Source: Rhizobium sp. Q54
GTDB lineage: Bacteria; Pseudomonadota; Alphaproteobacteria; SMXS01
DNA: 49,652 bases
Assembly: GCA_945907245.1 (NCBI GenBank)
Contig: CAMDTB010000019.1
Location: 1-49,652, forward strand
Reading direction: 5' to 3'
Each line of letters starts with the position of its first letter. Positions within the stretch are counted from its first letter, which is position 1. The notes beneath the pieces are model-generated. The model made no database searches. It saw only the letters and a list, made by a program, of their open reading frames with translations, and was not told the origin of the DNA. Shown piece by piece: positions 33,012 through 35,192 of the stretch. A program made the translations under genes and the position numbers.

Positions 33012-33037
33012 TCGCCGCTGGATTCACAACAATACCG

Positions 33038-33547
33038 TCAGTGCACGGCGGTCGAAATTGCTATGCTTTCGAGCGGGACGGCGCCGGGCAGCGGATAGGT
33101 GCCGGAACGCACGGTCAGCCGCAGTCCGCTGTCGCGGAGCGCAGCCGCCAGCGCCTTGAGTGGCGCCGAGGCGGCGCGGGTGCCGGCCGGCGTCAGGAAA
33201 CGACGATGCAGGAACGCCACATCGACCTTCACCTCGGCCTGTGCGAGCGCCACCGCGTCGATCAGCAGCAACTCGTCGGTGCTGACGGCGGCGCAGCACG
33301 GCGCATGCACGGCGATGCGCCGCGCCGCGCCGCTGGTGATCGCCCGCATCAGCGCGTCCAGATGGGCGAACGCGCCGCCCGCGCTGGTCCGCGCATAGGC
33401 GCTCTCGAGCAGGGCGAGCGCGGTGGGCGAGCCTTTGTGGCCCATCACCCATTTTCGCACCGACCAAAGCACGAATTGGTCAGCGAAGCCGTGTGTCTCG
33501 GTGTCGAAAATCCGCGTGGTCGGTTCGGCGTTGGTTTCGTGGTTCAT
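33038..33547 (-). CDS. Unknown protein, likely Fur-controlled
   Basis: A 169-residue soluble protein of no family I can name. Distinct features are the aromatic helix FADQFVLWSVRKWVMGHKG, a glycine-rich GGAFAHLDALMRAI, the cysteine pair in HAPCCAAVSTDEL, and LHRRFLTPAG. The PCC with nearby His and Asp could bind metal or a redox cofactor. The ATG at 33547 follows GAGGCG; the frame extends upstream but crosses the operator and is not convincing. A close match to the Fur consensus lies 38-52 bp before the start. The neighbour beyond that is a TonB remnant. Iron-linked function is therefore a reasonable guess, unproven. Confidence 0.72.
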   Translation of the reverse strand: MNHETNAEPTTRIFDTETHGFADQFVLWSVRKWVMGHKGSPTALALLESAYARTSAGGAFAHLDALMRAITSGAARRIAVHAPCCAAVSTDELLLIDAVALAQAEVKVDVAFLHRRFLTPAGTRAASAPLKALAAALRDSGLRLTVRSGTYPLPGAVPLESIAISTAVH

Positions 33548-33584
33548 GACGGCGCCTCGATTCGGTTGAGGCAGAAAGTGTAAA

Positions 33585-33599
33585 TGATAATTACTAGCA
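33585..33599 (-). promoter_or_regulatory. Fur-box-like operator
   Basis: TGATAAT T ACTAGCA matches the 7-1-7 Fur consensus TGATAATnATTATCA at 12 of 14 positions, in an AT-rich island of otherwise GC-rich DNA. It ends 38 bp upstream of the start of the unknown gene at 33547, a typical place for promoter occlusion by Fur. An iron-responsive Irr or Mur regulator would be an alternative reader in some alphaproteobacteria. Confidence 0.65.
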
Positions 33600-33702
33600 A
33601 TTACAAGTGAAAACCGGAACGCCGCCCTGGTTGGCGCTAGAACGCGCGACCGTTGCGATACGCAGGTTGTTGGGGGAGCGATCCAGATGTTCGCGCGCAT
33701 GA

Positions 33703-33927
33703 TCTCGGCATTTCGGCCAAGGTCAGGTGAGCATTGCTGCCGATATCAATGAGATTGGAAGGGTGGTCAATGTGCGGATAGCGGAATCACGACTGTCCAC
33801 GCCGTTTGACAGCGCCGCGCTGAAGGCTGTTCGACGTTCTCGCTACAAGCCTATGGTAATTAGAGGAAATTTAGTGAGGCGCGATGATATCCGCATCCGG
33901 GTGGTCTTTGCGGCCACTGGCCGTTAA
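33703..33927 (+). pseudogene. Remnant of a TonB C-terminal domain
   Basis: An open stretch of about 74 codons after a TGA at 33700 (possible GTG start at 33727) gives GQVSIAADINEIGRVVNV, FDSAALKAVRRSRYKP and DDIRIRVVFAATGR. This is the last two-thirds of a TonB energy-transducer C-terminal domain (G-V-V motif, FD-AAL-AVRR-RYKP, basic end). The membrane anchor, Pro-rich linker and first part of the domain are missing. Base composition is noticeably less GC-rich than the surroundings, which hints at transfer or decay. It could still be expressed as a small protein, but without an anchor it cannot work as a normal TonB. Confidence 0.6.
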
Positions 33928-33997
33928 CGAGTTCCCCGCGCGTGGCGATTCCATTACACTCACGGTGGAGCGCATGGAAACTTTTAGGGGAAAGCAT

Positions 33998-34456
33998 ATG
34001 AGACTTGCCGTTCGGTCCGCGCTGGTCGCGGGGCTTCTGATGACTGTCGCGTCGCCAGGCGCATTCGCCGAGGACAAGGCCGAGGACGCGGTAAAGTACC
34101 GCCAGTCGCTGATGGGTATCGTTGGCGATCACACTCAGTCGTTCTTCGCCCTGCTGCAGGGCAAGGTCAGCCATCCCGAGGACTTGGCCTGGCACGCTGA
34201 CTCGCTGGCGGCGGCCTCTAAGCGGGTGAAGGGTGCTTACGTCCAAAATACCGCGGGCTCGGGTGTCAAGACCGAGGCCAAGGACGGCATCTGGGCGGCC
34301 GGCTCGGAATTCAATAAGCTGGCGGGCGACTTCGAGACGGCGGCTGCGGCGCTGTCGGCGGCGGTGAAGTCCAAGGATCAGGCGGCGATCGGCGCGGCGG
34401 CCAAGGGCATCGGCGCGTCGTGCAAGGGCTGCCACGACAAATTCAAGGAAGATTGA
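33998..34456 (+). CDS. Cytochrome c' (c-prime)
   Basis: A 152-residue periplasmic heme protein. The signal peptide ends around SPGAFAEDK. The mature part is a four-helix bundle with the heme site at the very C-terminus, C142-K-G-C145-H146, the hallmark of class II cytochromes c. It starts with the usual YRQSLMGIVGDHTQSFFALLQG, including the Met and aromatic residues of the distal pocket. The family binds NO and can protect against nitrosative stress. AGGGGAA precedes the ATG at 33998. It converges on a cytochrome b561 gene, a common neighbour that may be its electron donor. Confidence 0.92.
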   Translation: MRLAVRSALVAGLLMTVASPGAFAEDKAEDAVKYRQSLMGIVGDHTQSFFALLQGKVSHPEDLAWHADSLAAASKRVKGAYVQNTAGSGVKTEAKDGIWAAGSEFNKLAGDFETAAAALSAAVKSKDQAAIGAAAKGIGASCKGCHDKFKED

Positions 34457-34462
34457 TCCCCC

Positions 34463-34497
34463 GGCCAGCACTATCAGGCCAGCACTATCAGGCCAGC
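34463..34497. repeat. 14-bp tandem duplication at a gene end
   Basis: GGCCAGCACTATCA is repeated exactly at 34463-34476 and 34477-34490, followed by a partial third copy (GGCCAGC). The second copy contains the stop codon of the cytochrome b561 gene (complement of 34488-34490). The repeat fills the gap between the two converging genes and looks like a recent replication-slippage product. Confidence 0.85.
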
Positions 34498-35192
34498 CAG
34501 GTAAGGGCGGCGCCGACCGCGCCGCCCGTGACCGCCAGGATCAGCAAAGCCAGCCACAGGGGCCGGAACCGCAGGGTTTCGGCGCCCTGCACCGTGTCCC
34601 GGCCGGTGATCATCGCACCGATCAGGTTCTGCCGCTTGACAAACAGGTAGAACAGCGCCGCCGCGATGTGGATGAAGAACACGATCATGAAGATCTCCCA
34701 GGCATCGCCGTGCCAGTGGGCAAGGTCGTTGGCCAGGTCCTCGTCGATCATGTCGCTCAGCGGTCCCGCCGGTCCGGCGCCCATCAGGTCCGCGTCGGCG
34801 GCGAACAGGCCGACGAGCGGCATGCCGAGCAGAAAGCCCAGCATCAGCACCATCGACCAGCCGCCCACCGGATTGTGGCCGGCCGGGTGGGTCTTGCCGC
34901 GCGAGAACAGGCCGCCGAGATAGCGGACGACCGCAATCGGTCCCTTCAGGAAATGACCGAAGCGCGCGGTCGTGCTGCCGACGAAACCCCAGACGATGCG
35001 GAACAGCACCAGCGCCAGGATGCTGCAGCCGCTCCAGACGTGCAGGACGAACGGATCCCAGCCGCCGGCGACCACCGGCTCGTCGAGATTCTCGCCGGTC
35101 CACCATTGCACGCCGACCAGCAGGATGATCAGACCGTGGAACAGGCGGATGGGCAGGTCCCAGACCCTGGTTTTCACGCCGTTGGCATTCAT
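34488..35192 (-). CDS. Cytochrome b561 family protein
   Basis: A 234-residue di-heme membrane protein of the cytochrome b/b561 type. Four main hydrophobic segments hold candidate heme histidines: WDLPIRLFHGLIILLVGVQWW, FVLHVWSGCSILALVLFRIVWG, the block after PVGGWSMVLMLGFLLGMPLVGLF, and WEIFMIVFFIHIAAALFYLFVKR. It passes electrons between quinone and periplasmic acceptors, and the cytochrome c' gene converging on it is a plausible partner. GAGGAGC precedes the ATG at 35192 and overlaps the stop of glpK. The 10-bp gap to glpK means it is read from the same message. Confidence 0.9.
   Translation of the reverse strand: MNANGVKTRVWDLPIRLFHGLIILLVGVQWWTGENLDEPVVAGGWDPFVLHVWSGCSILALVLFRIVWGFVGSTTARFGHFLKGPIAVVRYLGGLFSRGKTHPAGHNPVGGWSMVLMLGFLLGMPLVGLFAADADLMGAGPAGPLSDMIDEDLANDLAHWHGDAWEIFMIVFFIHIAAALFYLFVKRQNLIGAMITGRDTVQGAETLRFRPLWLALLILAVTGGAVGAALTWLA

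Follow-up and report, generated by a model that had tools for sequence, protein, structure and literature searches.

The stretch of DNA analysed here, referred to as the window, comprises 49,652 nucleotides of contig CAMDTB010000019.1 of Rhizobium sp. Q54. It raises the question of whether a small gene that lies behind a Fur-type palindrome and beside a fragment of a TonB domain is what is left of an iron-acquisition locus or a protein of the iron-starvation response in its own right. The gene is an open reading frame of 169 codons on the minus strand (33038..33547; ATG at 33547, stop at 33038), coding for a predicted cytosolic, all-helical protein of an undescribed family. As the initial annotation had described, it is located in an AT-rich island, with a G+C content down to 0.53–0.57 over 33400–34000 and about 0.66 in the flanks, and the protein contains a PCC motif, at residues 83–85. 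It had also been called unrecognised, in agreement with our searches of Pfam, NCBIfam and PHROGs, which gave no match above the cut-offs. Matches of the protein to VirD1 and TilS (E about 0.04) were judged to be noise. A weak stem resembling an intrinsic terminator is present at the gene end (33034..33049, minus strand; one found, 0.8 expected by chance).

The Fur-type palindrome TGCTAGTAATTATCA is situated on the minus strand at 33585..33599, reads TGATAATTACTAGCA on the plus strand, and matches the 7-1-7 consensus TGATAATNATTATCA in 12 of 14 positions. The earlier report of such a match was thus confirmed, with 0.07 sites of this quality expected by chance in the whole window; the site is upstream of the gene as reported, but it is separated from the ATG by 37 bp and not 38 bp. 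A sigma-70-like promoter (TTTTCA, 18 bp, TATCAT; 33584..33613, minus strand) is predicted by consensus match only, and its -10 hexamer TATCAT (33589–33584) is overlapped by the Fur box.

The degenerate palindrome TGMDAATNATTHKCA was found with at most one mismatch at six sites in the 3.34-Mb genome, the window site among them; another of the six is about 50 bp upstream of exbB-exbD-tonB and another near a gene for a TonB-dependent receptor. With at most two mismatches, 55 sites were obtained across all 3.34 Mb, versus 16 for the reversed pattern, and bfd-bfr is preceded by a double site, each half of which has two mismatches. The window site is like those that precede known iron genes of the same genome, which encodes three proteins of the FUR family. 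We assigned Fur to the top scorer (about 140 aa, E 3.5e-38); the remaining two resemble, from their sequences, Irr and Zur. A near-perfect Fur-like palindrome was also observed about 88 bp 5' of the gene for arginyl-tRNA-protein transferase (Ate) of this genome (L056; G000:C125:4625-4639).

The link to iron was tested on the upstream regions of homologues. In the first set, a box of at least 12/14 was detected within 200 bp of the start in 55 of 68 alphaproteobacterial homologues, compared with 17 of 450 other genes of the same loci (Fisher p = 3e-46), and the reversed pattern reached 12 in none of the 68. The box pattern had been drawn up after the first 17 upstream regions were viewed, and for this reason a second set of loci, from which those regions are absent, was fetched. 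In this second set, 38 of 70 homologues had a box versus 11 of 305 control genes (p = 5e-23), the AT-rich controls were boxed in 10 of 123 cases, and the reversed pattern was found in 0 of 70. Both p-values overstate the strength of the result and are to be read as upper limits, since each set includes some closely related sequences, which are not independent; the start codons of the homologues were assigned by rule. A safer measure is the number of genome families with at least one boxed member, which was 39 of 48, leaving nine without a box. The median position of the site was -64 bp in one set and -63 bp in the other. The site is accordingly conserved before the homologues well beyond other genes of their loci, and Fur control of the family gene is strongly supported by this comparison of sequences.

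Members without a Fur box may be under other regulators. Those of one group (f163) lack a Fur box, and four of its loci (L189, L191, L192 and L120) have in common a stretch TCTAGAA..CCTCGATA located about 120 bp before the gene, possibly another operator. An Irr-type (ICE) box was searched for before the members without a Fur box, with a best score of 11/14, there overlapping a Fur-like site, and of 10/14 in the f163 group. In a second group (f23), Rhodobacteraceae-like by context, hemP immediately precedes the family gene and overlaps it by 4 bp in 10 loci, so that the sequence upstream of the family gene is hemP itself. A search before hemP in this group gave no good Fur site, save one 12/14 site at -407, and a regulator other than Fur is likely to act there. 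The hemP-irpA-bfd-bfr operon of Rhodobacter sphaeroides responds to iron and has an Iron-Rhodo box that is bound by IscR (PMC3413700, PMC4618611).

The gene was found by single-sequence search in 17 of 96 relatives, and with profile A1 in 109 of the 387 genomes sampled from the class; a wider profile, run over 397 genomes of the phylum, recovered it in 57, of which 55 belong to the same class. On these data the family is essentially alphaproteobacterial, large and undescribed. Seven named loci were obtained with a narrower profile (A4), including those of Dongia mobilis and Desertibaculum subflavum, and a relative on an Azospirillum plasmid is annotated as a hypothetical protein. Within its own genus the distribution is patchy, as the single-sequence search found the gene in G002, G005 and G006 and not in G001, G003 and G004. 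No paper that names the family in a Fur regulon was found in the literature, where an earlier mention by Rodionov and colleagues (2006) is possible. Family members are arranged in tandem or divergent pairs at six loci (L079, L105, L109, L110, L114 and L155), which suggests paralogues that may work together.

Clustering of the neighbouring proteins showed that bacterioferritin and bfd recur beside the family gene across genome families. Bacterioferritin lies at most 5 kb away in 14 of 119 loci, a proximity whose chance probability is about 1e-15 on the assumption of two copies per 4.3-Mb genome and 6e-8 on that of eight, and bfd adjoins the family gene in some loci. Other recurring neighbours are imelysin, ferritin/Dps, di-haem oxidoreductase, a solute-binding protein, an HmuT-like binding protein and TonB. 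Frequent neighbours also include LysR regulators and MFS transporters, which are common everywhere, and the majority of the family loci have no adjoining iron genes. In the hemP-linked group, a protein resembling a distant paralogue, with the motif VSFDEAWL and no match in Pfam, is encoded between Dps and di-haem oxidoreductase (L165:6883-7317(-)).

In a comparison of 138 sequences, the invariant residues are Arg31 and Glu92 (100%), followed by Asp91 (88%), Trp33 (75%), Pro at position 145 (72%) and Gln103 (70%). The cysteine pair of the PCC motif is retained only in part: Cys85 is kept in 69% of the sequences and Cys84 in only 28%. The last residue is His in 57%, against 3% across the preceding 24 residues, and the penultimate one is Leu, Val or Ile in 66%; the linker before this tail is not conserved. 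Since the C-terminal His is often missing (in 13 of 48 families), as is Cys85 (in 31% of sequences), no single scheme of metal binding can apply to every member. The AlphaFold2 model, made with eight sequences, consists of six helices with a mean pLDDT of 80.7, a core above 90 and a low-confidence segment over the last 18 residues. Structural comparison of the model with the PDB gave a best E of 2.8 with Foldseek and a best Z of 3.0 with VIA-align, a profile search of PDB sequences a best E of 0.48, and a viral fold library no significant match; the lack of a fold match among PDB and viral structures does not prove a new fold.

Among described families, the closest likeness is to DUF6628 (PF20333), whose profile aligns weakly with the middle part of the protein (17.6 bits, E 0.004). 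The window protein is, however, below the 27-bit cut-off, and a match at E 0.01 was seen for only two of 67 proteins of the wider family. The Cys-Cys...E region of the window protein recurs in a true DUF6628 gene (L126), which also has a Fur-like site, TGATATTGACTTGCA (12/14), some 40–55 bp upstream; no paper on DUF6628 was found under that name. HemP/HmuP (PF10636) is likewise small and iron-regulated, and is in one operon with the family in one genome group, but it is unrelated in sequence, about 55 aa long and characterised by the motif ITRxGKLILTK. Bfd (PF04324), as a Fur-boxed small protein beside bfr, is a functional parallel, although the window family lacks its four-Cys [2Fe-2S] signature and has no match to the Fer2_BFD profile. 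Caulobacter crescentus CC_2367 and CC_2904 are undescribed and strongly induced by iron limitation and by deletion of fur (PMC3751524); these Fur-regulated hypothetical proteins are likened to the present family by description only.

The explanation that we favour, with moderate confidence, is a cytosolic, Fur-repressed protein of iron starvation that acts at the iron-storage and haem end of metabolism. The suggestion of a new iron-stress protein, made at the outset, is the best reading, as Fur boxes are kept before homologues in two data sets. To judge from the site and its conservation, Fe-Fur would occupy the palindrome over the promoter and block transcription when iron is plentiful; on loss of iron, Fur would be released and the small helical protein made, and a member of the family is very probably produced when iron is short. 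A link of the family to iron storage and haem is supported by the gene neighbourhood. The molecular role of the protein, its action in the cytosol alongside bacterioferritin, Bfd or HemP, and the function of its C-terminal tag are what we infer. The protein would serve bacterioferritin/Bfd and the entry of haem (HemP) rather than uptake at the outer membrane, most likely as an accessory or adaptor whose helical core, with Arg31, Asp91-Glu92 and the usual Cys85, would carry out binding or chemistry, and whose flexible Leu/Val/Ile-His tail would dock to a partner or supply a metal or haem ligand.

The same tail could instead make the protein a carrier of haem or iron, with the C-terminal His and the Cys85 region as ligands and with haem received together with HemP, or iron mobilised from bacterioferritin, as the source. 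The translational-coupling distance to hemP in the 10 loci cited above agrees with such a function, as do the hmuT-like gene, tonB and bfr near the member at L119 and the retention of the C-terminal His where the linker is not retained. Both ligands are nevertheless absent from many members (Cys85 from 31% and the terminal His from 43% of sequences) and no significant match to a haem-protein fold was obtained, and we regard a carrier, whether fed from haem or from bacterioferritin, as unlikely.

An iron-sparing regulatory adaptor under Fur, binding RNA, a protease or a target enzyme and lowering the use of iron, is distinctly unlikely. The RNA RyhB does elsewhere what such an adaptor would do. 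The family gene is a stand-alone, Fur-boxed gene with varied neighbours in most loci, and the short terminal motif, which resembles docking peptides, and the invariant charged residues would suit an adaptor of this kind; yet no match to a nucleic-acid or protease-adaptor family was found, and a more direct role is suggested by the linkage to bfr, bfd and hemP.

The neighbouring TonB fragment is the basis for reading the gene as the sole survivor of a decayed TonB-type iron-uptake locus. The truncated C-terminal TonB domain that had been claimed is real: the piece at 33727–33924 matches Pfam TonB_C (2.4e-7) and TIGR01352 (3.9e-9), and the start of the domain is missing. Although the remnant (33727..33927, plus strand) thus has a TonB_C domain, it retains 66 codons, with no N-terminal membrane anchor or Pro-rich linker of a TonB energy transducer. 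In the sister genome G001, the syntenic position between the genes for a TPR-oxygenase and cytochrome c' holds an intact gene (L223:7905-9005) for a 367-aa TPR protein with a C-terminal TonB_C domain 57–59% identical to the remnant. The remnant is consequently most simply its decayed tail and not that of an energy-transducing TonB, and the window may most simply be seen as a shared place where a TPR-TonB_C gene decayed; the remnant was judged to be outside the Fur unit. The gene order in G005 and G002 is TPR-oxygenase, family gene, cytochrome c' and cytochrome b561, with no TonB_C between, and it is the same in G006, where only the end of the TPR-oxygenase was matched; in G007, four TonB_C matches in a row are located some kb before the homologue. 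Adjacency of the remnant to a Fur-boxed gene is all that speaks for a decayed uptake locus, whereas the intact G001 gene, the order kept in relatives without TonB_C, the many different surroundings of homologues and the separate, Fur-boxed exbBD-tonB locus of this genome speak against it, so that the proposed remains of an iron-acquisition locus are highly improbable. The adjoining genes of the window are those for a protein that combines TPR repeats with a putative 2OG-Fe(II) oxygenase domain (PF13759; 31836–33011), whose gene adjoins the family gene in relatives too, and for cytochrome c' (33998–34456) and a cytochrome b561-type protein (34488–35192), in an order conserved in the genus.

A chance box before a gene unconnected with iron is very unlikely and scarcely tenable, for although such a site arose in 7 of 100 shuffled windows when taken alone, it is kept before the homologues in two sets with controls.

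The control of iron in alphaproteobacteria differs from that of Escherichia coli, and Fur regulons there hold many unnamed genes. The conserved sites and neighbours place a class-wide family, present in 109 of the 387 genomes sampled, in the Fur regulon, and the protein of strain Q54 is a probable newly recognised member of the Fur iron-starvation response. A more specific proposal, that this is an overlooked Fur-response family with a new helical fold, marked by its invariant Arg/Glu pair and a conserved hydrophobic-His tag at the C terminus and controlling the release of iron from bacterioferritin or the intracellular hand-over of haem or iron, is put forward as a real but tentative possibility. 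The family now has a signature and a confident model, and its role is directly testable in laboratory strains; it would add a new player to the handling of bacterioferritin and haem iron.
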